Origin: Citrus sinensis
Lineage: Eukaryota; Streptophyta; Magnoliopsida; Sapindales; Rutaceae
DNA: 64,000 nucleotides
Assembly: GCF_022201045.2 (NCBI RefSeq)
Contig: NC_068562.1
Location: 3,968,001 to 4,032,000, forward strand
Direction of reading: 5' to 3'
Shown one piece after another: positions 3,858-50,184 of the stretch. The stretch's first letter is position 1. Each line of letters opens with the position of its first letter. A program made the translations under genes and the position numbers. Below the pieces are notes generated by a model that was given only the letters and a program-made list of their open reading frames with translations, was not told the origin of the DNA and did not search any database.

Positions 3858-5198
3858 ATCTTCAATTCCCAGTTGAGAGAAGACTTTATTTTCTAATGAG
3901 AAGACTTAGATAGGTGATCTTTCAAAGTTCCTTTTTCCATGAACTCATACTAGCATCATCTTTAGACCTTTTATTACAACACCCAATTAAGGAAACAAGA
4001 TGGCGATGGCAAATTTTTTATAAGACAATTATTGCAGTTTGGAATTCTGGAAGCGCTTGGCCTGAGCCTGTTTCGCCTCGTTTTACCGCAACTTTCATGC
4101 TGTTCCTGAGAGTTCCTCTGTAGACATTCCCAAATACTCCCTTACCATTACTAACTTTCTATCGAAATTGTGCGTCGCAAACTTAATTTCCACATAAGTA
4201 ATTTTTAATCCAAAGTTTACATTATGCATTGGGAAGCCAGTTCCCTCAGGGACCCCACGATAAGAACCCCCTCCTTCATGTACATGTAACAGACACCAAT
4301 CCAAAGCTAAAGGAAATTCATCAGGCTTTTGCTTTCTCCATATCAAACAAAAAACAGTACAATTTCCAATATGCAAATCAGAACCGAACATGCAAGCACT
4401 GAGCCAACTACAACCATGAACTGCTTTTTCTTAGGTCCATTCACCACAGGAACTGCACCCGCTGTATCCGGGTTGTACAGGTAATTATCATCACGAATCC
4501 AGTTCCTTCCTAGATTGTCATTCTCTTGCGTAATCATAGGGCCACCAACATTGATCCTATCAATTGTTCGTAGAGCCTTCGAGTGAATGCCCCTTTAATA
4601 ATTAGTCTTAAAAACTGGAGGACTAACTTATGAAGCATTATCATGAATGAAACTTAAGAGGTAAAGGGTCCACAGGGAAGGCTTCAATGGCACTAGCAAA
4701 CGCGAAAGATGATTCTTGAGGCCTAAAGTAGACGCTATATTTACTGGAGACTGCCTACTGTTTTGGACATTAAAATTATGCATCAGCACAAACTAATCGG
4801 AGGTCGAAACGTCGGAAACAGCTTTGAAGAGATTGATTGCAGAGGAGAAAGCAAAGAAATGAAGGCGCATCTGGATGAGTACCGTTACTGCTAACATCAA
4901 ATTCGTAGGGAGGTGGTTGATTGAAAACTCTTGCTGTTTGATAGAGAACTAATATATCTAGTAACTGGCTGCTGTTTTAAACAGGATAGTTCTGCTTTGA
5001 AAAGGAGATGGAATCTGAACTCAGATCCCCACTGAATGTCGGATTGCCGGGATTCATGTTGGTATCTGAACCACAGTTGATGAAGTACTTGTCTGGAAGA
5101 GCGTAAGCTGCACAAGTAAGCCCCACTGATAAGACATGGAGGAGAAAAATAAGAGGGGATGAAGATTTAGGGACTTTTATGGTTTGAATCTTAGCCAT
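3858..5198 (-). pseudogene. Decayed CrRLK1L (malectin-like) receptor kinase pseudogene
   Basis: Read on the minus strand from the ATG at 5198, several frames together spell a CrRLK1L receptor kinase. A signal peptide is followed by YFINCGSDTN (start of the first malectin-like domain). Then an in-frame TAA comes just after SKQNYPV, followed by LYQTARVFNQPPPYEF and SSFAFASAIEAFPVDP. The second malectin domain starts with RINVGGP near 4550 but is mostly deleted, running almost directly into a transmembrane segment (about 4430-4370). The juxtamembrane LHVHEGGGSY and NFGLKITYVEI, a glycine loop (GKGVFGNVYRG) crossed by a frameshift, the VAVKRG lysine motif near 4090, HLVSLIGCC and LVYEFMEKGTLKDHL follow. 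The rest of the kinase is not seen. Stops, frameshifts and a roughly 200-residue internal gap make it non-functional. Living family members are mostly intronless, as here. Confidence 0.85.
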
Positions 5199-5927
5199 GA
5201 ATTTAGTTGGAGGAAAGCTAATCTCTGTGAATTTTGAATACGTAGTGGCTGAAAGATACTTGTGTTGACATAGTTGAAAAATTAAACATGAAAATCTGGG
5301 AAAAAAAAACATAATGATCACATAATTTTATGACAGGAATACAAAATATATGCCACGACGATAGAAATTTATGCTCTCCATTAGAAGATGCCCTCGCCCC
5401 TTGATATCGAAATAGCTGACTATATACAGGCCAATTATGTAAGCTAAAGTAAATGTGGACCCGTGGAAAACTTAGAAACTGGCTAAATGTATTGAATTTC
5501 GTCTTGCATTTGGTGGGTGAAGCAGAAGGCCCCACAATGGTAGGAATTCTACAATAATGGCACTCCTTGCAATCTACTTGCTAATGGGTTAAGGCAGCAG
5601 ATTGGTCTGTTTGCTTAATCTAGGGCATTTTGGGATGCTATATATTTTCCATCCTATATCCGATTCCTGAAAAGATTAACCGATGATGGAAGGCCTGATC
5701 CTTTGAAGGCTTCCAAAACCTGGAAATTGGTAAATACCATATACAGGTTAAACTGATACTGTACAGTGAGGTGAGATTATTTTCTCAAGGATGAAAAAGA
5801 CTTGAATATCTTCCCTCTTCAGCGCTAGTAATTGACACTATCTGATCCCGGAAATCAAGAGGAGGATGTGGATGTCCGTTAGCAAAATTTCTTTTATTTA
5901 TTTATCTTTGTTGGGTCTCGTTCAGAT
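5199..5927. other. Intergenic DNA between the receptor pseudogene and the MULE
   Basis: No gene is recognised. The sequence ends exactly at the 9-bp target duplication of the following transposon. Confidence 0.5.
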
Positions 5928-6604: not shown

Positions 6605-9600
6605 ATGGAAGAAATTAATTTGCAGTACTCACTAGCGGATGAAGAAGAAGTAAGTTTAAAGTTTTTTTCCCTTTAATTTTTGTACTCTATTTATTTTCAA
6701 CACCCTAATAATTTTATATTTCTAACAAATTTTAGGATGAAAAGCCTATTAATCACGGAAACAATGTCACAAGAGAATCGAACATTGTAGATGATTGTGC
6801 TTGTGTTTTCAGCACTGACAAGGTAGACAGTTAACTTTCACTTTTTAATTTTTTATTATTAATTAATATTATTCAAAGCTTTCTAATTGGATATATTATA
6901 ATTTTGTTTTGATTAGGTTTTTAATAGCAGGGAAGAATTAATTGAGTGGACGCGAAATGCTGGAAAGAGAAATGGATATGTCATTATAATAAAAAAGTCA
7001 GATGTAAGTGCACATGGTAGAAATCCAAGAATAATTTTCGCTTGTGAAAGAAGTGGTGCTTACAAGTGTGTTTCTAGTGAAGGTCAAAGGCCAAAATGTC
7101 CTAAGGCAACCGGAACAAAAAAATGCAATTGTCCATTCAGATTAAAAGGGCAATATTTGGCAAATGACAATTGTTGGGTTTTGAAAGTGATATGTGCAGA
7201 ACATAACCATCCTGCAGCAAAACATCTTGAGGGGCACTCATATGCAGGTAGACTTACTGAAAAAGAGAACAACTTATTGATTGATATGTCAAAAAGTAAT
7301 GCAAGGCCAAAGGATATACTATATACGATAAAGCAAAGAGATATATATAATGCTACTACTATGAGGTCTATTTACAATGCAAGACATAGATACAAGGTTA
7401 AAGAACTAGCCGGTAGGTCAAAGATGCAACTACTCATGAGCAAATTGACTGAGCATAACTACATTGAGTGGTATCGAAGTGATGCTGATACAGACAGTGT
7501 TAAGGACTTATTTTGGGCTCATCCTTTTGCAATTGACCTATTGCGGGCATTTCCACATGTGTTAATTATGGATTGCACATGCAAGACCAACAGGTATGCT
7601 TTTCCATTACTAGAGGTGGTTGGTCTCACCTCGACTGAGATGACATTTTCAGTATGTTTTGCATATATTGAACGCGAGCGGGAGGATAACTACAGTTGGG
7701 CACTAGATAAATTGAAAGGTTTTATGGATAATAATATGTTACCGAGTGTAATTGTGACAGATAGAGAGGTAGCACTAATGAATGCTATTCAAAATGTTTT
7801 CCCAACTGCAACTCATATTCTGTGTAGATGGCATATCTCAAAAAATGTTTTATCTAACTGTAAGAAGTTATTTGAGACTAATGAGGTATGGGAATCTTTC
7901 ATCACTAATTGGAATATATTAGTACTATCTGCCACAAAAGACCATTATATGCAACACCTAAGACTTTTGGAGAGTGAATTTGTTAGATATCAAGAAGTTA
8001 TTGATTATGTGAAGAACACATGGCTGGATAAGTACAAGGAAAAATTTGTTGCAGCTTGGACTGATTCAATAATGCATTTAGGAAATACAACCTCAAACAG
8101 GTAAATATTCATTAAAATATATTCTTATATTTAATTTTATTATTGAAAAAATAACTTTTTTTTTGGTATTTTCTTAATAGGGTTGAGACATCTCATTCAG
8201 CATTAAAAAGGCAACTACAATCATCACGAGGAACTTTTGAGACGTTATGGACTAAAATCCATGCTTTAGTAGAACTGCAGCATACAGAGATTAAAGCTTC
8301 GTTAGAGAGAAGTTCAACAATAGTGCAATATGATTTCAAACCTTCAGTTTTCAAGGAATTGCGAGGATTTGTTTCACGAAATGCACTCAACATGATATTT
8401 TGTGAGTCTAAACGAGCTGATTATATTGGTTTAGATCCATTGGCTTGTGGATGCGTAGTTCGACGCACTCATGGAATTCCATGTGCACATGAGATTGCAA
8501 GGTATAAGCGTGAAGGAAGACCTATTCCTTTGTCTTCTATACATCTACATTGGAAGAAACTAGACTTATTACCTACTACCAAAGCTGAAACTACAGATTT
8601 AAGTTGTTCAACTGAGATGGAGATGATTTTGAAGCGTTTTAATAATAATGATTACACTGGAAAGTTACAGATTTTGAAGAAGTTAAAAGAACTAGCAAAT
8701 CCAGCATCAACTTATCTTATTGAGCCAGAAGCTAAAGCAAGAACACGAGGCCGACCTTCTTCAAAGGCAGATAATTCTACTCGTCGAGATCCATCCAAAT
8801 TTGAACATGTATTATCTGCACTGAATAGTCATTCTCCACATTTATCTTCAAGTAAGATTTCTGTACAATCTAAACTACGACAAAGAAAAAAGGTGCACCA
8901 GTCTCAACTTCCTAAGCATTCTTCTTTCATTGATTCATTTCCACAAGGATTGCGGCCATATATACATCATGTTAAAGATGTTGCTGCAGATGGTAATTGT
9001 GGTTTTCGTGTTGTGGCTGATTTAATTGGTTTGGGTGAGGATAATTAGATTCAAGTGAGGAGGGACTTAATTGATGAATTAAAAAGCCACTTTGATGACT
9101 ATACCCAAATATTTAAGTATGCAGGTAGATCTGATGAGATTCTACAGTCACTTTCATATTTTGAAAGCAATCCATCAAATGATTATTGGATGACCTTCCC
9201 TGAAGCAGGATATCTTATCGCTTCTAAATATAATGTTGTGCTGATATTCTTATCTCAACTGCAGTGTCTCACTTTTCTTCCACTCAGATCAACTCCATTA
9301 CCATGGCCCTCTCAAAAGATTATTGCAATTGGATTCATTCACAATTGTCATTTCATACAGGTAGTTTTTTAGACATTTTGTTAATAATTATTATTTCATA
9401 CCACAACCCTCTAAGAAAAGAAAAAAAAAGATTTTTTTAACACTTGTTAACTATGATTTTTTCAATATTTTACTTTTTTATTACAGGTATTCATGAATCT
9501 AGGTTCACCGATGCCATCAATAGCAAGTAGTTGGTTAAAATATCATTCTTCTGTAGCAGAAGGATGGGCAACTCCATATGATAGGAACATTATTGCTTTT

Positions 9601-12776: not shown

Positions 12777-14418
12777 TCAAGTGCTACCAAGTAGAATTTT
12801 GTTGATGATGGGACGCGGTTTACACAGAACCTCGAGGGCCTCAGCTTTGGGCATGGTGATTCCTTTCCCTTCGGTCATGTCAATTTTTTGGCAACCAATT
12901 CTCTCCCACTCGAAACACTGAATCAACGAGCCCAAAGTCAAGCCTACCAAACGCTGGGCCAGCCCCATCCCAGGACAAGATCTCCTTCCCAATCCAAAAG
13001 GCATCATTAGCTTACGGGCCTCGCTTTCGCCATTTTCGAATCTTGCAGGCTCAAATTTAGTGGGCTCATCCCACAGCCCAGGATCCCTGTGAATGGCCCA
13101 TACATTGACCAATAACGTAGTGTCACGTGGCACATCAAATCCTCCAACGACGCAATCATCAGACGATCTGTGAGGTACCAGGAGTGGAGCTGTTGGATAC
13201 AACCGAAGGGTCTCGGAGATGATACAATGAAGATATTTTAGTTTGGAAAGATCCGGTTCATCGAATAGGTGTTGTTGACCAACATGAGTGTCCAATTCCG
13301 CTCTAGCTTTCTGCAACACATCCGGGTGATTGACCAAGTTGGACATTGCCCATTCCATTGTAACAGCTGTCGTGTCTGTTCCTGCCAGCAGCATAGTCTG
13401 TATGTGTGTGTGTGTGTGGTGTCGTTAATTTTGTAAATCGCCGCAGTGTGTGTGTGTGTGTGTGTGTGGGGATTGAAAAAGAGATACAATCGAATCTACT
13501 AACCTTCGCAAGCCCTTTGATAGTCTGATCGGTGTAGTAATGTGGTTCGGAGTGTTGCAGAGAAAGCAAATGGTCAATCATGGAATCCGTATTCTCTAAA
13601 CAAGCCTCCTTTTTATTTCTGCGTTCATCAACCAAACGTTGGAAAAATTCGTCCATTCTTTTGCTAATCTTCACAATTCTTTTCTCATAATTGCTGATCC
13701 AGTTCAACATAGGCAGGTGGTCTCCAGGATTCGAGGTCCCACTGAGGGCGAAAGCTTCCCCGACAATCTCCTTGAACCTCCCGGCTTCTTCTTCATCCTC
13801 CAGTACGTCATCGCCAAAGTACCGCTTCCCTGCAACTATTCTCATCATAACATTAGTCGTTAGCTCCGAAAACAGTGTTTTCAGCTCTACCTTTGAAAAC
13901 TCTTCGCGTGCATAATTCGCGGACAGTTTTTTCAACAACCGTTTAATCTCATCTCTTCTGATGGGTGAAAACACGTCGACACGATTTGATGAGAGCACTT
14001 CTATGGCAGTGATGCGGCGGAGATTGCGCCAGCGGTCACCGTACGGTGCTTGCACGAGAGTGGTGTAGTTGTAGGAGATGTGTTTGCCGCTGAGAGATTT
14101 CGGGCGGTTGGCGAAAACGACATCGTTTTTGGTGAAGCATTCTTGCGCAGCTTCAAAGGATGATACAACCACCACGAAGCGGGAGCCGAATCTGAGGGAA
14201 ACAATTGGGCCGTATTGTTTCGACAGGTTGTAAAGAAAGCGATGTGTCGGGGGCTTTATGAGGTGAAGATGGCCGATGACCGGCATGCAAGGTGGGCTCG
14301 GTGGCAGGTTTTTGTAGCCTCTCCTCCTTCCCTTAAACTGAAACAACTTCATCAAAGCGATTATTACGAATATAAAAGAAACACAAGCGTAGAGAATGGT
14401 TGTGTTCTTCTTCTCCAT
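12777..14418 (-). CDS. Cytochrome P450, CYP81 family (copy 1)
   Basis: Two exons, 14418-13504 and 13397-12777, give 511 residues, the usual length. An N-terminal membrane anchor (about residues 8-27) is followed by the proline hinge [20 protein letters not shown]. Exon 2 carries the oxygen-binding I-helix AGTDTT, the K-helix ETLR, a variant PARF in place of PERF, and the haem-binding loop [13 protein letters not shown]81 enzymes are ER-bound monooxygenases acting on isoflavones, lignans, indole glucosinolate precursors and related compounds; the substrate here cannot be told. The intron falls where the other two copies have theirs. The ATG at 14418 (MEKKNTT) was preferred over the upstream ATG at 14439 because the other copies also begin with ME. 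The intron is only 106 bases and is rich in CA repeats. The gene is divergent from copy 2 and convergent with the MEE59-like gene. Confidence 0.9.
13403..13468 (-). repeat. Two CA/TG dinucleotide repeats in the CYP81 copy 1 intron
   Basis: About eight TG units lie at 13403-13418 and eleven at 13447-13468. Together they fill over a third of the 106-base intron, and one abuts the 3' splice site. On the coding strand they read CACACA. Confidence 0.85.
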
Positions 14419-15280
14419 TTGCTGACTGCTGCTGATCATAAGGTTCTAGTGAGTGCTAATTTTGGTGTTTCCAAGGTGCGCTGCTGCTGACTTGCTGTTG
14501 CAGAAGAACTAACTAATTGTATTTGCATTGCCATGACCACTAAAATATTTAGAAATTGTTAATTTTTTATTGTCTCTCGTCAAACACTTATCCGTAGGAA
14601 AATATACAATAAAAAATAATGCACGTGGCAGTCGCTGTACACAAAATAATGCACAGAAACGGTTCCTCTCTCTCTTGTCCTCTCCGTGGACCCAAGGAGA
14701 AGCAAATTATAAATCACTAAACGGTATCAATATGCTGCCGTTTCAGTCTTCATTTTGCCGTCCTTTAGTTCAGTTATCATTTTCCTATTTCTAAACACTT
14801 GCAATGACCACAAGAATTTAATACTGTAAAATAAAAACTCAAAAATAATATATTATAGCTGTACCAAAAGCAGGAACATAATTGGGACACAAATCAATCA
14901 AATAAAAACATTTCTACATATGATAAATTATTAAAGTTATTTTCTTTTTACTACTAAAATTATTGCGGAATAACATTTAATTGCAACTACAGTACCTTAA
15001 CATTTTACTACTAAATAATTACAAATTCTTAGATTTTATTATTTTTTCGTTAAAGACTATTAGTTGACCTTTCAAAAATTAATTACACCTTTGCTTTTAA
15101 AAAAATAAATTCAAGACTCATTGCATACGTTGGCCTGTAAAAGACTAATTAAAATATTAATAAATAAAATGACTGATTTACCTGGAATTTAAAATACTAA
15201 TAGTAAGTATAATTAAATTATTCTGCCTACTGTTAAGATGATTAATGATGGATATTAAACTAATAGTCTTTTTATCGAGG
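14419..15280. other. Intergenic DNA, CYP81 copy 1 promoter side
   Basis: AT-rich and without a recognised gene. The first few hundred bases must hold the minus-strand promoter of CYP81 copy 1. Confidence 0.45.
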
Positions 15281-15593
15281 GTATTCTCATCAAATCGTCT
15301 TAACGCGTTTATATCAATTAGAAGAGATGAAATCAATCGGTTATTGAAAAAACTGTCGACTTATTCACGCCAAGAGTTTCCGAAGATGGAGCTGAAAACA
15401 TTGTTTTTGGAGTTTACTTCCAGTATTATGTTGAGAATGGTTGCAGGGAAGCGGTACTACGGCGACCCTGTGGAGGATGAGGAAGAGGCGAGGAGGTAAT
15501 TAGGGAGATTGCAAAAGATGCTTTACGGATCCAGGAGATTAGTTGCCTATATTGAACTACATCGGTAATTATCAGAAAAGAATTGTGAAGCTT
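15281..15593 (+). pseudogene. CYP81 gene fragment
   Basis: A stretch equivalent to roughly residues 145-250 of the neighbouring P450s is preserved: [42 protein letters not shown] and DEEEARR. A frameshift and stop follow, but REIAKDALRIQ and NYQKRIVKL can still be read in another frame. There is no N-terminal anchor, no I-helix and no haem loop, so it cannot make a P450. It lies in the same orientation as copy 2 and between copies 1 and 2, so it is a remnant of an extra member of the tandem array. AGKRYYGD is shared with copies 2 and 3. Confidence 0.88.
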
Positions 15594-16854
15594 ACTTTGT
15601 GTTGGGACAAGTAGAGTTGGTAAAATTTAACATAATCTTTTATTTAGTACAACACGATATGAATAAATAAGTTTATGTCGTGAAAATTAACACAAATGAC
15701 GTGTTATTATTTAATGAGTGATTGAGATGTGTTTAAAGTAATACCATCATTAATATGATAGTTACACTAGACCAATAAATGAATGACAAGCCAATTGTCA
15801 CATTATCTAAATTTAAATATATACATATTTGTATAAAATTTTTGTAAATATAGTATTATTCTTTATTAAATGATGGTGTTCACTTTTAAGAGTGTGACCG
15901 AGTAGTTTTCAAGTAGATTTATTTAGTTGATCACCATGGATCGAATCCCTTATTTTTAGAAAAAAAAAAAATAGCAATGTTATTTTTAAATTTTTTTGGA
16001 AACGAATGTATATTCATTGCTTGTACACTAGTTCCCATTTTAATTACTCTCATTTCACAGGCAATTTTGGCAAGGGTGGTCTTGTAGAAATCAGACGTAC
16101 TTTGATTTTCTCATCCACAGGTTTTGTTTTCAGTCCTTTTCGACAACTGAAGCGAAACGAGTCTTCCGCACAAAAACTATAAATCTAGGTATTACAACTT
16201 TCACTTTCCAAAATGCCTAACAAAATTATGTGAATTGATATAAGTTGATGAAATTAACAGGATCATAATTCCTAATAGATACAGCTGGCGAGAATTGTCA
16301 ATTGGTTATAAAACCAGTTTACATGAGTGGGTGTCAGCTGAATTAGCTTAGTTTGTGACAGAGAGTTTTTTTTTTTTTTTAAAGTAAGGGAGTGGGTAAG
16401 CCCAAATACAGTTTTTAACTCCTTTATTACTCTTAAGAATCAAATCTGAATTTTAATAAAGGTTACAACTGCACTGCAAGTAATCCGACCACACCTTTAG
16501 GGACTAACGGAGAGTTACACCTTCAGAACTTACTGGGTGGGAATCAGTTTGCTGGTCGGGAACGTGGTTTGGACTTTGGAGGACCGGCAAACAGCACTTC
16601 AATGCTTAACTCAACTTTCCTATTAGAACGCATGCAAAAAAAAAAAAAAAAAAAGAATATTTCTCTCTTTAGAATGTTCACAATCTCAAAAGTGAATTAT
16701 CCTCTCCTTTCAGTCATCCTCATACCTCTATTTACAAGCATTTCTCTAATAAGACAAGTTAGATTCATTTCAAATATTATTACTTCATCAATGCATGTCA
16801 TATACCTCTTCATGTGAGCACTTCTGAAGTTATTGTGACCTCGTGTGCTTTATT
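15594..16854. other. Repeat-like intergenic DNA
   Basis: Apart from the tRNA-like remnant there are long A or T homopolymers (about 16366-16380 and 16636-16653). No gene is recognised. Confidence 0.4.
15895..15948 (+). repeat. Degenerate tRNA-like head, possible short SINE remnant
   Basis: TGACCGAGTAG (box A-like, as in tRNA-Ser/Leu) at 15895-15905 and GGATCGAATCC (box B-like, one mismatch) at 15938-15948 have tRNA-like spacing. An A-rich tract follows at about 15959-15971. No clear target duplication was found and no tRNA fold was confirmed. Confidence 0.3.
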
Positions 16855-16870
16855 AATGAGACACATATGA

Positions 16871-17172
16871 TACCAATGGGCCTTTGGTCCAATGGGAGAA
16901 GCCTTGCACTTACAATGTTGAGTGCAAGGGTTCGAGCCTCCATAAGAGCATTATGGAGTTTAGTTTCAGTTCTTCCTCAATTATCAATTAATTGAGTGGA
17001 GCAGGCACCCCTCGAATATTAGAGAGGGTTTAAAATATCTGGGCATATACTTCAGTGTGTCAATGTATGATGGTGGTCCCAGTTATATAGTATGATTGTA
17101 AATATTAATTGTAATGTCTGATGTAATGTCAGTAATATCTATGTATAACAGACTCCAAAAAAAAAAAAAAAA
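16871..17172 (+). mobile_element. tRNA-derived SINE retrotransposon
   Basis: A roughly 300-bp unit has an RNA polymerase III box A (TGGTCCAATGG, 16885-16895) and box B (GGTTCGAGCC, 16929-16938) at tRNA-like spacing. Between them is a perfect 7-bp stem (CTTGCAC...GTGCAAG) like an anticodon arm. The unit ends in a run of A and is flanked by a 16-bp perfect direct repeat, AATGAGACACATATGA, at 16855-16870 and 17173-17188. This is the classic structure of a SINE inserted by LINE machinery. The perfect target duplication implies a young insertion. No family name can be given without a search. Confidence 0.9.
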
Positions 17173-17188
17173 AATGAGACACATATGA

Positions 17189-18976
17189 GGGTTATCTTCT
17201 ATTCCAAACACTCTAGCTAACTTCGAAATTCATCCATAATTAATTATTTTTTTCATTTTAGCCCAGGTGGGACACATGGTATAATGTAGGCTCTTCGAAA
17301 ATAGGACACACCTTATCTCTTTGGATGGTATAAAAGAACTAGGATGAATGAGAATGATATTTAGCGTATGATAAGCATAAACAATTTATTTTGCATTAAA
17401 ATAATGTAGAACCCAATTTATTTTTGTTTCAATATTTTTAATTATGTTAAAAGTAGGTAGGGAGGGATGGATTTGACGGATTAACCCAAAAATAATTTTT
17501 GACTTCTATTTTTTGTGGAATCAAGTTCGGATGGCTAACTAAACAAAAGGACTGAAAACTACACGCTCGTGCAAACCGTTTTTCTTAATTTTATAAATCT
17601 AGGTTAATTGGAATTTCGGATGCTTGAATTCTAGCCATACAAATCAAATCAGAGATATTTTTTTTAAAAAAAAAAAAAAAAAGCAGACAGAGATTGATGC
17701 GTAGTGTTTCTGGAAATGGTGGTGGTAATGGACCTTTGTAGACCCAAAAATTTTACGTGGGGCCTTTCGGAATATTGATGAAGAAAAATGGTGCCTAAAC
17801 CGACAATGCATTTGCGGCCTGTAGGTGTAAAATATCGTCTGGTTGAACAACTTTATGACTGCCATTTCATATTTGTCCCTTGCATGGGTTTCGTGTTTGA
17901 TAAAGGAAAATGCTATTTTACTGCTTGTTCCTATTGGATCGGAATACACCTATGCTTGACATTAAAGAAAAAAAACATGTTTATAATTATCTGAGAAACC
18001 ATTTTCGGATAATTTTTAAGATTAAAGCACAATGCAGCTTTATCAAATGGGACCTAATTGTTTCACAATTCTACTTTAAATGCTAGTTGGGACACTACTT
18101 GGCTACCCTTAGTGTTATTTTTAATGGATATTATATGTATATATATATTTGTACATGCATATATGTGTGGGTATAGACACACACATAAGTATTGAGTTGA
18201 CATTCATAAATTGAATGATTCATAACTTGTAATTTTCTTCTTTTTTGTTTTTAAAATATAGAGTGGTGGACAAAATTCAAATCAATTTTTTAGTTCTCTC
18301 TTTCTTCTTAAATTTAAATTTAGACGGTCAACTAAATAAAATTGCTTGATTCATTACTTGTCAAATTACTTGTTAGTATATGTTACCATCTAATAAAGAA
18401 GCGGCATCTCACTTCAAAAGAACAAAGTTTAGATACTATTCTTTTGATGGCATAATATTATTCGAGCCATCTAATAGACCAACATATACTAGATAGTAAC
18501 GTTAAGAGTTAGATGGTTGTGCTTCTTCTTCTTCTCTTTTTTTTTTCTTTTTTTCTTTTTTGCCTTTTTTCATTTGACAATATATAAACTGAAGAGAAGA
18601 AGCAGAGGATGACGTGCACAATGAGTGAAAAATATTATTTTGGTACAAAATTAATTTTTTAATGCATAAAATTAAAAAAAAAAAAACGTAATGGATAAGA
18701 AAGATTGTTACATATATAGTGATTTTGATATGAACAAAATTAATGAAAGCTTCACAAAATTAGCACGTTGGTCATGTACGTCAATATATTAGCACGTTGA
18801 ACATGCAGATGCTGAGGAAATTGTAAAAAATAAGATAAAAGTTTGTCAATTCAACGCCACACTACAAGCGTTGCTACAAAGACCCAACTCCTCTCCACCT
18901 ACAAATAATTCACCACAAAAACTCACTCGAAAGCTTTATCCTCAAACCAAAACAAAACAAGCGCCAAGCGAAAATC
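17189..18976. other. Intergenic DNA upstream of CYP81 copy 2
   Basis: AT-rich and without a recognised gene. It includes a pyrimidine-rich stretch (about 18515-18570), TA-rich microsatellites (about 18130-18190) and an A tract at 17666-17682. The last few hundred bases presumably form the promoter of CYP81 copy 2; no convincing TATA box close to the ATG was found. Confidence 0.45.
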
Positions 18977-20638
18977 ATGGAAGAGACAGCTCTCTACCAT
19001 TCATCAATTTTTCTCCTATTCCTAATGCTTGCTTTCAAGTTGTTAATGTTTTGGGCAAGAAGGCGCCATAGAAAGCTACCCCCAAGCCCACCTGCAATGC
19101 CAATTATCGGCCATCTTCATCTCATAAAACCCCCAGCGCACCGCTTTTTCTACAACTTGTCCAAAAAATACGGCCCTATCTTTTCCCTTAGACTCGGTTC
19201 CCGCCTCATGATAGTCGTATCATCAGCTAAAGACGCCGAGGAGTGCTTCACAAAAAATGACATCGTTTTCGCCAACCGACCCAAATCACTAAGTGGCAAG
19301 CACATCTCCTACAACTACACCACCATTCTGACAGCCCCGTATGGTGACCACTGGCGGAACCTCCGCCGCATCACTGCCACTGAATTACTCTCCTCAAAAC
19401 GTGTCAACATGTCCGTAGCAATAAGAAGAGAAGAAATCAAAAGGTTGCTTAAGAAACTGTCGACTTATAATTCGCGCCAAGAGTTTAAAAAGGTAGAGCT
19501 GAAAACGATGTTCTCAGAGTTAACGTTTAATATTACGATGAGAATGATTGCGGGGAAGCGGTACTACGGTGATAACGTGGAGGATGAGGAAGAGGCGAGG
19601 AGGTTTAGGGATACTGTGAAAGAAGTTTTAGCGGTTAATGAGACCTCAAATCCTGGTGATTTCCTGCCTTTCTTGAACTGGATTGGCGATTTTGAGAAGA
19701 GAATTTTGAGGCTCAGCAAAACAATGGACACAATTTTGCAAGGTCTGGTTGATCAACACAGAAATAAAAAGGCTGGTTTAGAAAGCATGGATACTATGAT
19801 TGACCATATGCTTTCTTTGCAAGAGTCTCAGCCCGAGTACTACACCGATCAAAATATCAAAGCCCTTATGTTGGTAATTTTATTTTTTAATAATAATAAT
19901 AATAATAATAATAACAACAACAAGTTTGGTGCGGTGTACTAATTTTAACGTCGTTAAAAATTAAAAATGTTTAGTATTTATTTCATGTATAATTTTTAAC
20001 TTTGCATGCAGACTCTAATAATAGCGGGAATAGACACATCAGCAATCACATTAGAATGGGCAATGGCAAATTTAGTCAATCACCCAGAGGTGTTAAAAAA
20101 TGCTAGAGCTGAATTGAACGCTCAAGTTGGCCAAGAGTGTTTAATTGACGAATCGGATCTGTCTAAGCTACCTTATCTCCGTAATATCGTATCAGAGACC
20201 CTTCGATTGAACCCAGCAGCGCCGCTTCTGATCCCTCACAGATCATCGGATGATTGCACTGTAGGAGGATATGACGTGCCGCGTGACACAACCTTGTTGG
20301 TCAATGCTTGGGCAATTCATCGGGACCCAGAGTTGTGGGATGAGCCCACTTGTTTTAAACCAGAAAGATTTGAAAGCAGTGAAAGTGAGGCTCATAAGCT
20401 CATGCCTTTTGGGCTTGGAAGGAGAGCCTGCCCAGGCGCAAGCCTAGCCCAACGCCTTGTTGGCTCGACGTTGGGATCGTTGCTTCAATGTTTTGAGTGG
20501 AAGAGAATCGGTGAAGACAAAATTGACATGACCGAGGGCAGAGGAATCACCATGCCCAAAGCCGTCGCATTGCAGGTTATGCGTAAAGCATGTCCTAATA
20601 TACATAAGATTCTATTCGATAGTGATAAAAAGATTTGA
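18977..20638 (+). CDS. Cytochrome P450, CYP81 family (copy 2)
   Basis: Two exons (18977-19873 and 20012-20638) give 507 residues. An N-terminal membrane anchor (about residues 8-26) is followed by [20 protein letters not shown] and [12 protein letters not shown] (helix C). Exon 2 has the I-helix AGIDTS, the K-helix ETLR, the PERF region (FKPERF) and the haem loop [10 protein letters not shown] with the thiolate cysteine. All catalytic motifs are present and the frame is open, so the gene should be functional. The 138-base intron holds a TAA/CAA microsatellite. It is head-to-head with copy 1 (the CYP81 fragment and SINE lie between them) and tail-to-tail with copy 3. The CYP81 assignment rests on overall resemblance recalled from memory; the substrate is unknown. 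Confidence 0.92.
19888..19923 (+). repeat. TAA/ACA trinucleotide repeat in the CYP81 copy 2 intron
   Basis: About eight TAA units followed by several ACA units, just after the 5' splice site. Confidence 0.8.
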
Positions 20639-22376
20639 AGCTCGCTTTAGTATGTTCTTTTTAACTAAGATTTATACGCAACGTTCTTGCAAAATGGAAC
20701 CATATAAATCTCTTGAATTCTCTATCATAAGGCATATGCGATTAATAAAAATAATTTATGATTCTCAAAATTAGATTTTGAATAGCTACTCTTTTTTTGT
20801 TTTTCAAAATCTGCTATAGGATGGGATAACTTTGTCAAAAGTGATTTTTAAAAAAATTTACTAAACAACTAGTTTAATTTTTTACTTTTTAAAATTATTT
20901 TTTTGTATCTCTCAAAAGTAATTTCAAACAGACCCTTAATCATTATAATTTAATGTCTCTTACCGTAGTGACAATTTTATTTATAAAAAAAATGTCGACG
21001 CAGAGAACTTTTGTGATATAGTATTTTCATAAATTATTGCAAGATTTCTTTTGTTTGCACATGAATTCAAGCAAAATAATATTAATAAAAAAAATCAGAG
21101 ACTTCAATTTCAAAAATACACCACGAAAGTCCTCGACTACATTTTTAGTTTATTACATTCAAGTTCTTGAGAATTTAGTAAAAAAAAAAAATTCAATTAT
21201 ATTTATTTTCATGGTTTTGCTTCTAAAACTTTTGTACATTATGTTGTTAGTAAGTGGCTATATTAGCCATTGGACTACAATCAGCAGTTGAGGGTGGAAG
21301 TTTGAGTCAGAGTATGAGGACTCCATTCTCCTCTCATAACTAGGTAAATGTAGGTATTTCTCTAACAAATGTGACATAAATAAGAAATATATCTTCCGAA
21401 TATTAGATTTAGAGGGGTAGATATGTTATAATGTGAGAATAGAAATTTATATCATATCATAATACAATTGATTTGAGATTACTCCCATGCAAATTTATCA
21501 TTATAAATATCAATAGACATTTGTTTATAAAAATATATCAATATACAAATAAATATATGTGAAGATAAACAAAAAGTGCAAACACATAAATTTTTCTTGT
21601 AATTAATCAGGATCCTTTTATTATTTGATATTTTCTTGAACAAAGTGCAATTTTTAATAGTTAATAAATTAAAAAAATAAAAGTAATTAAATTTCTAATT
21701 ATACCATAGCAATACATGACAAATGACAGATTTTTAAAAATTTAAAAGAGGTTTTTTTAAAATTAAATTCTTATTATTCTTATTTAATTTTAGTTTATAT
21801 TGAAACGAAAATATATTGGATGTCAAAGATGAAGAAACAACAGTAATATTTTTATTTATTTAATTAAATGATACTTATTGTCTCCTATGAATTTTCAAAT
21901 TTGTCATCTCCCTGATTAGCGAATGGCCACAGCGCAGGGGCTAGCATCGCATGCTTTTCAACACCGCGACTTTTTTACAATTTAATTGGAGTATTTTTCT
22001 TATGTTTCTTTAGATACTTTGTGGTTTTTTTTTTTTTTTTCAATTTAATTCAATCCATTTCATACGTATAAATATTTATAAACTCAACGAATGATGATAA
22101 TTACCAAAATCAAGCACTCTATTATGAAAGAAGGTTTTACAATCGAACTTTACAAATGAAGAATCTATTAACCAAACATTTAGTTCGCAACTTGAGAATA
22201 GTTTGAATGTAACACCTTTTTTTTTAAACTCATAATAATACATGAAAAAGTCGATTATGCAAAAACATACATAAACATCTCTTAGTACACTGCCTAAAAT
22301 CATCACACAAATGCTTCAACTATTCTAACGAGCACAACATTGCCAAAAGAGAAATAAAAGAAATAACCACTCTGAT
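20639..22376. other. Convergent intergenic region of CYP81 copies 2 and 3
   Basis: AT-rich and without a recognised gene. A piece at about 20790-20935 (TTTGTCAAAAGTGATTTT, then TCAAACAGACCC) resembles the right half of a common plant hAT-like MITE. Confidence 0.4.
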
Positions 22377-24824
22377 TTAGTCAAAGAGTTCCGAAACATT
22401 GTTCACGATGGGGCGAGCTCTACACATAACCTCCAATGGCTTGGCTTTAGGCATGGTGATTCCTCTCCCTTCGGTCATATCAACCTTTTCTTCATCAATT
22501 CTCAGCCACTCGAAACATTGAATCAACGAGCCTAAAGTCAAGCCCACGACACGTTGGGCCAAACCCGATCCAGGACACGCTCGCCTTCCCAACCCGAATG
22601 GCATTAGCTTGTGGGCCTCACATTCTCCCTTCTCGAACCTTTCTGGTCTAAAATTGTTTGGATCATTCCACAACTTAGGGTCCCTGTGAATAGTCCATGC
22701 ATTTACCAATAAGATTGCGCCACGTGGAACATGGTATCCTCCTACAGTGCAGTCGTCGGATGATTGGTGAGGTACTAGAAGTGGCGCTGCTGGATACAGT
22801 CGCAGGGTCTCTGATATAACACTCTGAAGATAATGTAGTTTGGAAAGATCAGGCTCGTCGATCAAGTACTCTTGGCCAACTTTACTGTCTAGTTCCGCTC
22901 TGGCTTTTTCTAGTACCTCTGGATTATTGACCAAATTGGACATCGCCCATTCTATTGTCACTGCTGATGTGTCGGTCCCAGCTAGCAGCATCACCTGCAT
23001 GCATTATGCATACACATTTATTAATTTGCTTTCGACCCTTCGTTTATTTATCGGATAAATTAAGCTGATGCATATTATTAATCATCCAATTCAAGATTGT
23101 AAATTCAAATTTGAATTTTATTAAAATCTAGAAAAGTTATTACACCATATACCATTATTCTATTAGACTAAAATTTCCGAAATTTAATAAAACTCAAGAT
23201 CTTGAATATATATGTATACATATATCTGCCAATAGTCAATAGAAGACATGGGTATGTAGTAATTTGATTGGCTAAAGATGTTTGGAACTTTCAGAACTGG
23301 GAACATACAAATTCTTCTTATATTATTTTTTCTTAAATTTAATTTATGATACAAAAAGCACCTTCTCACTAATTGCGTTCTTAGAAAAATATTTATAAAT
23401 TATATAATTATTCTCATTTTTAAATTTCGAATAACAAAATTTTGTTTCTACTTTTGGTTTTATATCTTCTTAAACAAATTTCTTAATTATTCAGAATTAG
23501 TGGAGAATTATATGCTATTCGGTATCGCGGCTCAAACAAAAGGCTAGAATCCAATTTCATTTTTTTTTCAAAAACGACGACGTCCGACACCCTTGCACTA
23601 TCATGATACTCTCAAGTTCGAAGTTACCCGTCCATGCGCGCATAGTTCAGGTCCAAGCTTTCAAGGATAAGCTCGACAAATTAATAGCCGCGATTATTAT
23701 AGACGCTCTAATTCATGCATGAATCACAAACCACAAACTTCTCCAGGATGTGGATGCATAAATTTTAATGTTTGAGATATCAAAACTTGATCAACTTCTA
23801 TTTTCTATTTTCAGTTTTTATTTGATATAAAGAGTACTGTTCCAGCAATTTAATCAATTAATTGATTGTTTTAATTTAAAAGAAAAAAAAAAAGATGAAT
23901 GGATCGAGTTAAAGTTTGACTAACCAGTATAAGGCCTTTGATGATTTGATCGGTGTAGTATTCGGGCTGAGACTCTTGCAAAGCCAGCATATGATCAATC
24001 ATAGTATTGGTGCTCTCAGAACCTGGCTTCTTAGTTCTGTGCTCATCAATCAAGCCTTGCAAAAACGCATCAGTAGTTCTACTAAACCTCAAAATCCTCT
24101 TCTTATGATCACCAACGTCGATCCACTTCAAGATCGGCAAGAAATCTTCTGCATTCGTTGCCCCACCATACGCCGCAGCTTCCTTAATGATCGTCCTAAA
24201 CCTCCTCGCCTCCTCTTCATCCTCCACGTCATCACCGTAGTAACGCTTCCCTGCTACCATTCTCATCATAATATTAAATGTCAGCTCCGAAAGCGCTGTT
24301 TTCAGCTCCACCTTTGAAAACCCTTGGCGTGAACCAGTACTCAACAGTTTCTTCAGTAACCGTTTGATTTCTTCTCTTCTACTTGGTAGAAAAGTACTAA
24401 GACGGTGCGATGAGAATACTTCGATGGCGGTGATGCGACGGAGGTTGCGCCAGTGCTCACCGTACGATGCCTGCGTAACAACCGTGTAGTTATAGCCCAG
24501 GTGTTTGCCGGTGAGGAATTTTGGACGGTTGGCGAAGACGATGTCGTTTTTGGTGAAACATTCCTCCGCAGCCTCAGAGGATGAAACGACTATCACGAGG
24601 CGAGAGCCAAAGCGGAGGGAGATGATGGGGCCGTATTTTTGTGAGAGGCTTTGCAAGATGCGGTGCATGGGCTGCTTTATGAGGTGAAGGTGGCCGATGA
24701 TTGGAATAGAAGGCGGGCTTGGAGGAAGGTTTTTGCGGCGGGTATACGAGAACTTGAGAGCAATAATAATAATATTGAGAAAGAGGAGCAAAAGAGCTGA
24801 GTAGAGGATGACTGTGTTTTCCAT
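22377..24824 (-). CDS. Cytochrome P450, CYP81 family (copy 3)
   Basis: Two exons, 24824-23925 and 22994-22377, give 505 residues. The translation starts MENTVILYS with a membrane anchor, then [20 protein letters not shown]. The I-helix AGTDTS, K-helix ETLR, FRPERF and haem loop [10 protein letters not shown] are all intact. An upstream in-frame GTG at 24830 is not the start; the ATG at 24824 is. The intron sits at the same place as in copies 1 and 2 but is much longer, 930 bases. A TATAAAGT box at 24889-24882 lies about 60 bases upstream, giving a compact promoter. As for its neighbours, the role is ER-bound monooxygenation in specialised metabolism, substrate unknown. Confidence 0.92.
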
Positions 24825-24881
24825 GCTCACTTGCTGGCTAGTAATGCTGGCTGCATGCCAAGCGAGTGGATACCATCCACT

Positions 24882-38500: not shown

Positions 38501-41083
38501 TAGACAATGGTTTGTCTATGCAGTAAACTAAAAATTGAGTTAATTTTCTATGTAATAATTGGGTTGGTTAAGCAAATAAAGGTTGGCAGGTACAAAGGCT
38601 TGATTGGAGCATTCAGATACAATGGCTTGGGCATTTTTTCTTTAGATTAAATGGTTCCTAACTGGTGTTCTATTGTTTCTGGTGGATCAATGTTTTCATC
38701 AGATCAAAACAGATAAAACATATTTTGCATTGTGCGAGCCTTCCTATTGGGAACATTTTTACTCACTGGAGTGTAGATGTTTTAACTCGCTCACTGACAA
38801 ATTCTTTTGTTGAAATGCTGATGTTAAACTACAATTATGTTGAATGTCTGAAAAGTATTAAACCTTTGTAGGCCAAAATATTCATATTGAAACCATGTGA
38901 TGCTTTTTAAGCTAATCTTTTGAACTCTGCAATTTCAGGGTGAGGTTAACTGTGTTAAATGGGATCCAACAGGTTCGTTGTTGGCCTCTTGCTCAGATGA
39001 CGTCACTGCCAAGGTTATTTCTGCTACATTTCTCCTTAACTAATAATTTTCATTTGGCTACATGATGTAGTTCATTTTTTCACTGCCAACCATTCTGTTT
39101 TCATAAAGGGGAGCCTTGTTACATTAAGTATTTTGGCTCCAGTTGTTAGTTGGGCCAGTTGGGCACTAATAATTTCTCTTCCTAGCATTCTCTGAAGTTT
39201 GTTTTCTTATTGGATTTTCAGATATGGAACATGAAGCAGGACAAGTATGTTCATGATTTGAGAGAGCATTCCAAGGTACCACTGATATGTTAATTCCTCG
39301 ATCATTTCTTGTGCATATGTTCATACACGTGCATAATTGTTACCATTATATCGTAATAATTATGAATAATTGTGTTGCAGGAGATATATACTATCAGATG
39401 GAGTCCTACAGGATCAGGGACGAATAATCCTAACCAGCAATTGATCCTAGCGAGGTTAATACCATACTTTTTATATTGGATATGTTCTATATATTTTAAG
39501 TATTTTGCAACAACCGAACGAGCCAATTTACCACTACATTTGGCATGTAGTGACGTTGAATTGTGAAGAAAATGTAGTTTGACATCATTAAAATGTAGGT
39601 TGACATTGTACTGTAGATGATGTTTGTACAAAACTTAATTAGTTATAATTTATATCCATTGAATTTCACTGTTGTGTTATTACCGTTTTGATTACCTTTA
39701 GCATGTGTGTGAAAATTTCTCAATCATAGGAGGGTATGTATTCCTGATGTGTGTACTACTTTTTTGTGAATTTCGTACTACCAGTAAGTGCTATCTGTGT
39801 TAGCTGAGCAGGCACTTGTATTGGAAAGTCAATCATATTTATTGATTTGGAAATCTCTGACTCTTGCAATTGATTCTTTTGCATAAATGTAGTTTGCTGT
39901 CTCTTGTTCTATATATTTTAAGTATTTTGCAACAACCGAACGAGCCAATTTACCACTACATTTGGCATGTAGTGACGTTGAATTGTGAAGAAAATGTAGT
40001 TTGACATCATTAAAATGTAGGTTGACATTGTACTGTAGATGATGCTTGTACAAAACTTAATTAGTTATAATTTATATCCATTGAATTTCACTGTTGTGTT
40101 ATTACCGTTTTGATTACCTTTAGCATGTGTGTGAAAATTTCTCAATCATAGGAGGGTATGTATTCCTGATGTGTGTACTACTTTTTTGTGAATTTCGTAC
40201 TACCAGTAAGTGCTATCTGTGTTAGCTGAGCAGGCACTTGTATTGGAAAGTCAATCATATTTATTGATTTGGAAATCTCTGACTGTTGCAATTGATTCTT
40301 TTGCATAAATGTAGTTTGCTGTCTCTTGATTGAGGAAAGCTGACGTGCTTTTCATATATTTGGAGTGAAATGAAGACTTCCAATGTGGAGATGTTGACAT
40401 TGTTATACGTATATAGTATTAGTTATATAAAACGTGCACACACATATTAAAATATAACTAGAGGTGCAATATTTTATTATTACAATTGTATTTCTTACAT
40501 GCTATAGTTTTGTTTTTATGCAGTGCTTCTTTCGACTCTACAGTAAAGCTTTGGGATGTAGAGCTAGGGAAACTCCTCTACAGTTTGAATGGACACAGGT
40601 ACATTAACTTATGGCTTCTTTGTATGTGAGCAACTAGGGAGATTGGTAATCAATAATGTTTTTATTATCAATAATAGGTCTTATAAACGTTGATAATGGA
40701 ATAAGTCATTACTTTAGTTCTACTGGTTCTTTTGAGATGAAATCACAAGCAATTTGGATTTGTTTAAGTCTTGGATCCAAATCTCTTTAGCCCACTTTCC
40801 TTGTTTTCTGATGAATGATGATTGTGGTTGTTTCTAACAAATGCGTGGATATTAAATCATCAGGGAACCTGTGTACTCGCTCGCATTTAGCCCTAATGGG
40901 GAGTATTTAGCAAGTGGATCTCTTGATAAATCCATGCACATCTGGTCACTGAAGGAAGGAAAGATTGTGAAGACGTACACTGGCAATGGCGGTATATTTG
41001 AAGTATGTTGGAATAAGGAAGGTGACAAGATTGCTGCCTGTTTCGCCAACCATACAGTTTGTGTTTTGGACTTCAGAATGTGA
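32514..41083 (+). CDS. HOS15: HOS15-like LisH/WD40 repeat protein (TBL1 type)
   Basis: Fourteen exons, all with consistent phase: 32514-32574, 33560-33705, 33829-34177, 34946-35040, 35144-35190, 35977-36127, 37137-37200, 37698-37856, 37952-38073, 38939-39013, 39222-39275, 39381-39454, 40524-40598 and 40864-41083. They encode 563 residues. A LisH dimerisation motif ([25 protein letters not shown]) opens the protein. A long Lys/Glu/Arg/Asp-rich linker (about residues 95-165) follows, then a C-terminal array of WD40 repeats (for example TARIW, QARIWST, TAIVWDV, AKIWNM, VKLWDVE, MHIWSLK). It closes with CVLDFRM. This is the TBL1/HOS15 family. Arabidopsis HOS15 is nuclear, works with histone deacetylases and a CUL4 ubiquitin ligase, and affects cold response and flowering. 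The product is about 50 residues shorter than Arabidopsis HOS15, as I recall it, mostly in the charged linker. It converges with the PPR gene downstream. Confidence 0.93.
39484..40327. repeat. Recent 422-bp tandem duplication in HOS15 intron 12
   Basis: Positions 39484-39905 are repeated at 39906-40327 with a period of 422 bp. I found only two differences by eye (T/C in GATGATGTTTG against GATGATGCTTG, and C/G in GACTCTTGC against GACTGTTGC). Both copies lie inside the intron before exon 13, so the protein is not changed. Confidence 0.92.
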
Positions 41084-48441: not shown

Positions 48442-48622
48442 TTTTCTGAAGGGTAATTTTCGGATACCTCCCCTGAGGTTTGCCCTTGCTACACTTAAAG
48501 AGAATGTATGCATATATTAACATATAGCAACCCTGACCGTGTATCAGCGTTACAGCAACGTTTGGTTGTTAAGGGCAAAAACGTAATTGCACGAATAAGA
48601 ATTGCAAAAACAGAAGCCAGAA

Positions 48623-49236
48623 GGGTAATTTTTAAAAACCTCCCCTGAGGTTTGGATTTGTTGCAAGTAGATGGCGAGAATTGATTTATTTGTAAAAAAT
48701 CTCCTACCGTCAGTTAATTTTAACATTGACCGTTAGTTGACCGTGCAAAGACAATATTACCCTTAACAATAGTTTATAAACGAAAATAACTAAAAAAAAA
48801 ATCAAAATTATTAGTTATTTTACCATCTTTAAATTATTGATATTTTCTTAAAATTCCTATAAAAAAGATAAAATTAAAAAATTAAAAAATACTCTTTAAA
48901 TTATTGATATTTTCTTAAAATTCCTACAAGAAAGATAAAATTAAAATTTTAAAAATGAAATAGTCATAATCTTTACCTATGATATTGTAAATTTTTGGAA
49001 TTGACAAGGATAAAATTGTTAAAAAATAGGGTTTGTGCTTTTCGCACCAATAATTTTAGTTTTTTTTAGTTATTTTAGTTTATAAACTATTGTTAAGGGT
49101 AATATTGTCTTTGCACGGTCAACTAACGGTCAATATTAAAATTAACTGACGGTAGAGAATTTTTTACAAATAAATCAATTATCACCATCTGCTTATAACA
49201 AACCCAAATTTCACGGGAGGTTTTTAAAAATTACCC
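48623..49236. mobile_element. MULE-like MITE nested inside the Pack-MULE
   Basis: A 614-bp element with very long inverted repeats (about 175 bp each) starting GGGTAATTTTTAAAAACC. A perfect 10-bp duplication, GAAGCCAGAA, lies at 48613-48622 and 49237-49246. Its first roughly 30 bases are related to the host element's terminal repeat, so both belong to sibling MULE families. The centre is AT-rich with a 66-bp tandem repeat and has no coding potential. Confidence 0.9.
48827..48950. repeat. 66-bp tandem repeat in the nested MITE
   Basis: The string TCTTTAAATTATTGATATTT begins at 48827 and again at 48893. The two copies stay similar for about 55 bases, including AAAATTCCTA and AAAGATAAAATT. Confidence 0.8.
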
Positions 49237-49455
49237 GAAGCCAGAAAGCAGGAGCTTTTGCTTCCTTTCCCTCTCTCTCTCTCAAAAGAATTTAAAGTGA
49301 AAAAAAAAACACTTTCTTCTTTTCTTTGTCTCTTCCCCGCTTCCTCTCCACCCATTTTGTTCTTTTATCAACAAAGCTGAAAAACAAAGGTCACTATTTC
49401 TGCATCGCCACCACTTTGTCGTATTGCTTTGCTAGTCAAACAAAATTTTAACCCC

Positions 49456-49971
49456 ATGTTAGAAAATAACACCAATATTAATGCTCCTTCTTCTTCTCAT
49501 CCTTTCACCTCTTCAGAAAATGGTGCTCTAGTTATTCACGAAAAAAAGAAATAGAAAACCAGCAGGCACCCCATTCAGTTTTCTTTTGTATATGGGTTCA
49601 TTTATTTTAAGGCGAATTGCAAGTTTTAACTTATGTTTTTCTGTTTTTTGTTTGATACACACAAATACAAGCGCACGCGTATAGATCCGGATGCAGAGGT
49701 GGTATCTTTATCACCCAAGACCTTGTTAGTATCAGACAGATATGTATGTGAGATCTGCAACCATGGGTTTCAAAGAGACCAGAACCTGCAAATGCATAGA
49801 AGAAGGCACAAGGTGCCACGGAAGTTGCTGAAGAGAGAAACAAAAGTAGTGAAGAAGAGAGTATTTGTTTGTCCAGAGGCAGGCTGCTTGCACCATGACT
49901 CTTGTCATGCTTTGGGAGATTTTGTTGGCATCAAAAAGCACTTTAGAAGGAAGCACAACAACCACAAATAA
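49456..49971 (+). pseudogene. Captured IDD14/15/16-type C2H2 gene fragment
   Basis: The first exon begins MLENNTNINAPSSSHPF (ATG 49456) and should end in KKRNRKPAGTP, but a one-base frameshift puts a TAG just before that block. A roughly 110-base intron is retained. Exon 2 starts at about 49683 with the INDETERMINATE-domain signature PDAEVVSLSPKTLLVSDRY. Zinc finger 1 (CEICNHGF...HRRRH) and zinc finger 2 (VCPEAGCLHHDSCH...KKHFRRKH) follow with all Cys and His ligands kept, then NNHK and a stop. Fingers 3 and 4 and the rest of the protein are absent. The HRRRHKVP and KRETKVVKKRVFVCPE wording points to the SHOOT GRAVITROPISM 5/IDD15 subgroup. The upstream CT-rich leader (about 49250-49455) was captured too. 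Retained intron and leader show DNA-level, not mRNA-level, capture. Confidence 0.88.
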
Positions 49972-50184
49972 ATACTCTCTTCAGCAGTTGACAAGGCAAA
50001 CAAATATCGTCTGTTATGGTATTGTGCAGTGAAGGCCATTATTGTAATTGCATAAACAGAGCAAACGGCAGTCTAACGCTAATTCACGGTCAGGGGTGCT
50101 ATATGTCAATATACGCATACATTCTCTCTAAGTGTAACAAGGGCAAACCTCAGGGGAGGTATCCGAAAATTACCCTTTTCTGAA

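Follow-up and report, generated by a model that had tools for sequence, protein, structure and literature searches.

The window, by which we mean the whole 64-kb stretch of DNA analysed here, contains at 48451-50175 a non-autonomous Mutator-like element (Pack-MULE) that carries a captured IDD zinc-finger gene fragment. Its features are listed below by position in the window, with the strand where one applies and the basis of each call.

48442..48450: 9-bp target site duplication TTTTCTGAA, left copy (direct reading)
48451..48564, plus: left terminal inverted repeat (TIR) of the Pack-MULE (inverted repeat I2, 90% complementary)
48565..48599, plus: left subterminal backbone (visual comparison of the junctions in 18 elements)
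48613..48622: 10-bp duplication GAAGCCAGAA, left copy (direct reading)
48623..49236: nested MULE-type MITE, 614 bp (inverted repeat I1 and genome search)
49237..49246: 10-bp duplication GAAGCCAGAA, right copy (direct reading)
49247..49455, plus: captured 5' leader of the IDD parent (alignment to the C2 parent locus)
49456..49571, plus: remnant of the captured exon 1, beginning with the native ATG at 49456 (alignment to parent, frame reading)
49572..49684, plus: captured intron 1 remnant, splice acceptor retained (alignment to parent)
49633..49971, plus: hypothetical open frame of 112 aa (ATG within the intron remnant, runs through finger 2)
49685..49967, plus: captured part of exon 2 (parent match stops at 49967; Pfam PF22996)
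49747-49809, plus: zinc finger 1 (ligand positions)
49870-49956, plus: zinc finger 2 (ligand positions)
49964..49986, minus: inverted filler (inverted repeats I8, 19 nt, 95%, and I16, 12 nt, 100%)
49987..50061, plus: right subterminal backbone of the element family (comparison with family members; left limit approximate)
50062..50175, minus: right TIR of the Pack-MULE (inverted-repeat detection)
50176..50184: 9-bp target site duplication TTTTCTGAA, right copy (direct reading)

The initial annotation described inverted ends of roughly 100 bp and a perfect 9-bp duplication, and both hold: read from the sequence, TTTTCTGAA is perfect over 9 bp on both sides, and the inverted arms (48449-48564 and 50062-50177; 116 nt as computed, 90% complementary) come to 114 nt without the duplication bases. 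Family members without the IDD piece have the left subterminal backbone too, and the capture junction falls close to the end of this backbone, the exact base being uncertain. No open reading frame of at least 120 aa that might represent the element's own transposase is listed within 48451-50175, and the 112-aa frame is IDD-derived according to Pfam. Both outer flanks are single copy in the genome, where an outer empty site was not seen.

Leader, exon 1, intron and part of exon 2 lie inside the element as originally described, 49247-49967 being alignable to the parent gene; since the intron is retained, a retrocopy is ruled out. IDD (BIRD) transcription factors have four zinc fingers, of which the third and fourth are of the C2HC type. 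The window element falls short of this definition, with fingers 1 and 2 alone remaining, in agreement with the earlier statement that fingers 3 and 4 are gone. These two fingers have all eight zinc ligands, and the 112-aa frame matches PF22996 (second finger of BIRD/IDD proteins; E=1e-16). The claim that the fingers keep their ligands and an open frame is therefore correct for the fingers themselves but not from the native start: the exon 1 remnant has a 1-bp frameshift, a TAG stop at 49552-49554 and a deleted splice donor, all three common to the window element and the copies C4a and C1 described below, and its ATG yields 32 aa only.

The filler at 49964-49986 repeats 49826-49872 in inverted orientation, passing over 24 bp, and carries a stop codon after ...NNHK. 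It is present in the window element and C4a and absent from C1. Because C1 reads on into the next parent codons (HKLWFV...) where the other two have the inverted copy, the stop behind finger 2 appears to be a scar left by repair and not the edge of the capture.

What the initial annotation treated as one element is in part a second one, since 48623-49236 is a nested insertion outside the IDD capture. Its GAAGCCAGAA duplication is perfect over 10 bp and its arms, of about 177 nt, are 92% complementary. A genome search with 48630-49236 gave at least 41 near-full-length direct matches including the window's own, the others being 93-95% identical; this is a lower bound, scoring having covered 40 of the 561 first-look candidates. 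Two of these copies lie side by side on C2 (20012116 and 20012754). As RNA, the MITE is predicted to fold at -267 kcal/mol, where 20 shuffles average -97 (z -26). C4a, the sister copy on C4, has a single GAAGCCAGAA and no MITE at the matching point, and thus represents the empty site. Among the nine IDD-carrying elements the MITE occurs at this point in the window copy only, and its absence from C4a places the insertion after the separation of the two.

Elsewhere in the window, a different MULE transposase is represented at 7157-9048 by two open frames; PF10551 matches the first (8.4e-26), and the second ends in what by eye recalls an OTU-type protease motif. Several P450-like open frames occupy both strands of 12777-24830, apparently a tandem gene cluster as judged by eye from the ORF list, and a 422-bp tandem duplication (two copies, 99% matches) lies at 39483-40328.

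The parent gene and the copies of the element

When 49673-49969 was searched against the window's genome (11 contigs, 299.7 Mb), 13 matches resulted: the query's own locus, C4 (100%), C1 (97%), C2 (94%), a partial match on C7 (94%) and eight others at no more than 74%. The C2 match is the parent IDD gene that the initial annotation had supposed, a full, intact gene at another locus, with introns and an uninterrupted 429-aa product (minus strand, start at 23273092, stop ending at 23271037, exons joined at limits picked by eye at GT/AG sites). In its protein, the models for the second, third and fourth IDD fingers score above their Pfam cut-offs, and the first finger falls just under that of C2H2 PF00096 (25.1 versus 25.2 bits). 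We take the parent to belong to the IDD14/15/16 subgroup; the earlier label 'IDD14/15/16-like' fits on this assumption, while Pfam itself reaches only the BIRD/IDD level. A phmmer search of solved structures for an IDD-specific match gave generic C2H2 fingers (20 sequences at E<=0.01), which say nothing particular about IDD proteins.

Nine TIR-bounded elements carry pieces of this parent, and a further copy is apparently truncated. The census compared the parent locus with the fetched loci, and the 1078-bp captured interval with the genome, where 36 matches were found (24 of 24 candidates scored); among the remaining ones are IDD paralogues, at 66-79% identity, as well as weak matches of short length. 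The exon-2 search had undercounted the family because its query was exon 2 only. In the following list parent pieces are given in coordinates of the L011 reverse complement.

Window element: 48451-50175 of the window; parent 4262-5061
C4a: 15402873-15403973; parent 4262-5061
C1: 13854781-13855898; parent 4262-5097
C7b: near 24269125-24270802; parent 4243-4957 and 5286-5310
C7c: 18042885-18043986; parent 4241-4726, 4766-4805 and 5092-5310
C3: 47377262-47378772; parent pieces as C7c, insertion at 5215-5228
C8: 18200532-18202042; parent pieces as C7c, insertion at 5215-5228
C7d: about 16791149-16792626; parent pieces as C7c, from 4249, insertion at 5215-5228
C4b: 6525209-6526121; parent 4241-4527 and 5215-5310
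L071 (C7:11154463-11155059; outside the count of nine): looks like a truncated tenth copy, matching the right half of a C3-type element, with one TIR in the 2001 bases fetched

Read by eye, the target site duplications are perfect in the window element, C4a, C1 and C8, match at 9 of 10 positions in C4b and C7d and at 8 of 10 in C7c; C3 sits in an A-run, and the flanks of C7b have no clear duplication. It had been considered that the flanking repeats might be shared by unrelated loci with no target duplication. Instead, the copies have other flanks and mostly their own duplications, so the window element and its cargo have moved together by transposition. A parent at another locus, target site duplications and further copies together uphold the reading as a Pack-MULE holding a captured IDD fragment. 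The first proposal, that it is the strongest candidate for an undescribed element, is weak: at least nine copies make up what is an ordinary Pack-MULE lineage, and the window element belongs to a known type, multi-copy, with decaying cargo. The window element and C4a have unlike flanks and different duplications and are 99.1% identical, MITE left out; with just 7 differences over 1102 aligned positions and 3 positions in gaps, the last transposition of their sub-lineage is recent.

Some copies bear insertions of their own. C7b carries two more repeat insertions (L012 5005-5448 and about 5576-5729), one with longer relatives at 71-82% and one a short unit with many at 87-92%; its middle part was considered as a second captured gene and rejected, since it mostly matches repeats and represents later insertions. 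An insertion of about 400 bp lies in the captured intron-2 piece of L051 (about 1345-1757) and also of L052 and L062, flanked by a TTCTTTCAA duplication and with no inverted ends evident by eye. C4b retains a shortened form of it.

Capture and mobilisation

The right junction TATCTT/CTGCAATG is common to six copies (C3, C8, C4b, C7c, C7d and C7b), in which the left parent match starts at 4241-4249. For these six, a single capture of about 4233-5310 (~1.08 kb) followed by internal deletions is well supported. The window element, C4a and C1 lack this right junction and their parent match starts at 4262. One capture for all nine copies would be the simplest reading, and extends to this trio through its left edge, which would fit when judged by eye; in local alignment of the left junction, the AT-rich backbone and the parent both align across it.

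Two trees bear on whether the parent was instead captured more than once, the trio deriving from its own event. The first was built from TIRs and subterminal sequence (260 columns; 18 rows, comprising the nine IDD elements and the 9 of 15 fetched non-IDD loci with both ends known). It places all nine IDD elements, including the trio, in one group (91/90), which also holds one non-IDD element, L053. The IDD label needs two changes on this tree and one change in 7% of bootstrap trees; 1 of 500 label shuffles was as low. The second tree, built from 476 columns of the captured 5' block in 10 rows, recovers the trio (100/100) and a group of five (100/99), and these and C7b radiate from near the parent with their branching order unsettled, so that the trio joins the other six only through the parent. 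The missing right junction, the later left start, this radiation and the position of L053 are what a separate capture would predict. Against it, the trio has all its pieces within that 1.08-kb interval, a left edge compatible by eye and TIRs that group with the others, and we regard a separate event as rather unlikely.

Searching for the family with 48450-48622 gave at least 40 matches (40 of 112 candidates scored), often the two ends of one element. Twenty larger regions around such matches were fetched, five of which carry IDD pieces, and transposase-like frames were recognized by eye in seven (L057, L059, L063, L064, L065, L067 and L069). For two of these, L057 and L063, Pfam confirmed transposase domains, with PF10551 (MULE) and PF04434 (SWIM) in both and PF03108 (DBD_Tnp_Mut) in L057; L063 has both TIRs, and L057 one in the fetched stretch. 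From this kinship of TIRs, the IDD elements were most likely moved in trans by a MURA-type transposase of such relatives.

The same TIR family includes L061, with a BPS1-like frame (939-1364; Pfam), and L070, with an SRP-receptor-alpha-like frame (945-1364; Pfam), and has thus captured more than one gene. L058 has a serine-rich frame at 1799-2122 with no Pfam match, which presumably resembles QWRF proteins.

Possible effects and coding state of the cargo

The window element, taken without its MITE, and the parent genomic stretch have 58 exact 21-mers and 34 exact 24-mers in common (sense strand, parent introns included), the longest run being 36 nt; C1 and the parent share an exact run of 60 nt. 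Such runs would in principle suffice for small-RNA cross-talk. Read-through of the MITE hairpin, captured leader and exons could yield 21-24-nt RNAs that match the parent IDD gene and dampen it. A strong predicted hairpin directly upstream of the captured leader would favour this route, nine copies would add up, and one paper on Pack-MULEs names them as possible small-RNA sources, with 40% of those in rice transcribed and possibly yielding small RNAs (PMC8277862). Yet the MITE is found at that point in one of nine copies, that of the window, and we consider it quite unlikely that the element acts as such a source. More speculative is the proposal that the Pack-MULEs derived from this one IDD gene, at least nine in number, form an RNA brake on it, with the window copy the strongest by virtue of the MITE hairpin before its leader; judged from sequence, we would give this a slight chance.

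The initial annotation also raised a truncated competitor protein, which directs attention to constraint on the finger frame. Between window and parent, dN is 0.062 and dS 0.120 (dN/dS ~0.5) over 96 codons, the last one filler. Taken alone, this ratio might hint at weak constraint, but it is offset by the parent's own branch, which adds mainly synonymous change (2 amino-acid and 52 synonymous codon differences between the parent and its paralogue). The finger codons are identical between window and C4a. Between window and C1, nine finger codons differ in amino acid and one synonymously, filler-touched codons included; with the two filler-touched codons left out, all eight substitutions are non-synonymous (few sites and low power), in agreement with eight mismatches in the 291 bases of the finger bin. 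Divergence between the two is 2.7% in that bin, 2.9% in the leader, 4.3% in exon 1, 1.0% in the intron and 8.1 and 8.8% in the TIRs, bin limits being approximate. In C1 the zinc ligand Cys22 has become Tyr, and C7b has a stop at Gln27. In neutral simulations with 12, 15 and 18 substitutions, the open frame and eight ligands were retained in 27%, 19% and 14% of runs; 17 differences were observed. Neither the codon comparison nor the simulation thus detected purifying selection on the finger frame, at a number of sites so small that weak constraint could escape.

Protein function of the captured fragment is unlikely on this evidence, and we see very little chance that the 112-aa two-finger product of 49633-49971 competes with IDD proteins for DNA. 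Its frame is open, the ligands are kept in both the window element and C4a, and the PF22996 match is strong. According to a review, two of the four fingers of ID1 carry an unusual DNA-binding property, and elsewhere in the same review fingers 1-3 matter for DNA binding (PMC6539433). Another source describes Pack-MULEs as potentially functional genes, on evidence of transcription, translation and constraint, the latter two for some in rice (PMC4858842); protein-coding Pack-MULEs are rare according to PMC8277862. On the other side, the frame starts within a former intron, behind a native ATG that opens a dead-end frame, finger 3 is absent, one ligand is lost in C1, every scored window-C1 substitution alters the protein, and chance alone left frame and ligands whole in 14-27% of the neutral simulations. 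The competitor idea is therefore weak, its native start cut off and its frame free of detected constraint.

A decayed original gene at the window site is ruled out by a parent that stands on C2 with other flanks, and any reading as a decayed or segmentally duplicated IDD gene without transposon cargo, which would accommodate the retained intron, has a negligible chance in view of the TIRs, duplications and unlike flanks.

Reconstruction and comparison with known systems

The history that we think very probable is that of a Pack-MULE that captured an IDD gene piece, spread, underwent different internal deletions and received a nested MITE, its cargo being most likely an unselected passenger. 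An element of the family with GGGTAATTTT... ends would have taken up ~1.08 kb of the IDD gene, comprising leader, exon 1, intron 1, exon 2 and the start of intron 2. This element would then have spread through the genome, mobilised in trans by the MURA-type transposase of same-TIR relatives, its descendants losing different internal parts. The window sub-lineage would have lost all beyond finger 2, and is now found on C4 and C7; the inverted filler with its stop would have been gained in the window element and C4a only, and the C7 copy, that of the window, later struck by the MITE. The captured piece is most likely non-coding and unselected, and presumably neutral to the host.

The copies form a readable series, with capture junctions in six, three sub-lineages with different deletions, a filler scar, a recent jump and a nested MITE. 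Gene capture and erosion by Pack-MULEs could be studied well in this family, as could the question whether multi-copy fragments of a developmental regulator feed back on their parent via small RNAs. We found no literature linking indeterminate domain genes with a Pack-MULE.

The nested 614-bp unit resembles MULE-type MITEs: its arms are 177 nt long, its ends read GGGTAA, its duplication measures 10 bp and its near-identical copies are many. It differs from them in lying inside another MULE with a similar TIR (51 nt at 80%). The cargo invites comparison with IDD14-beta of Arabidopsis, reportedly a splice variant and natural truncated competitor that retains the dimer part but no working DNA-binding part. 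Like it, the window fragment is in principle a partial IDD product; unlike it, the fragment keeps fingers of the DNA-binding part and not the dimer part. The element as a whole is like the Pack-MULEs of rice and other plants, as two sources describe them: a non-autonomous MULE with long TIRs, 9-10-bp duplications, a gene fragment with an identifiable parent and several copies with distinct duplications (PMC8277862, PMC4858842). It shows no categorical difference from these, and taken alone is not a new kind of element; it is notable for a history of capture, deletions, filler and nested MITE that can still be read, and thus a well-traced example of a known process.
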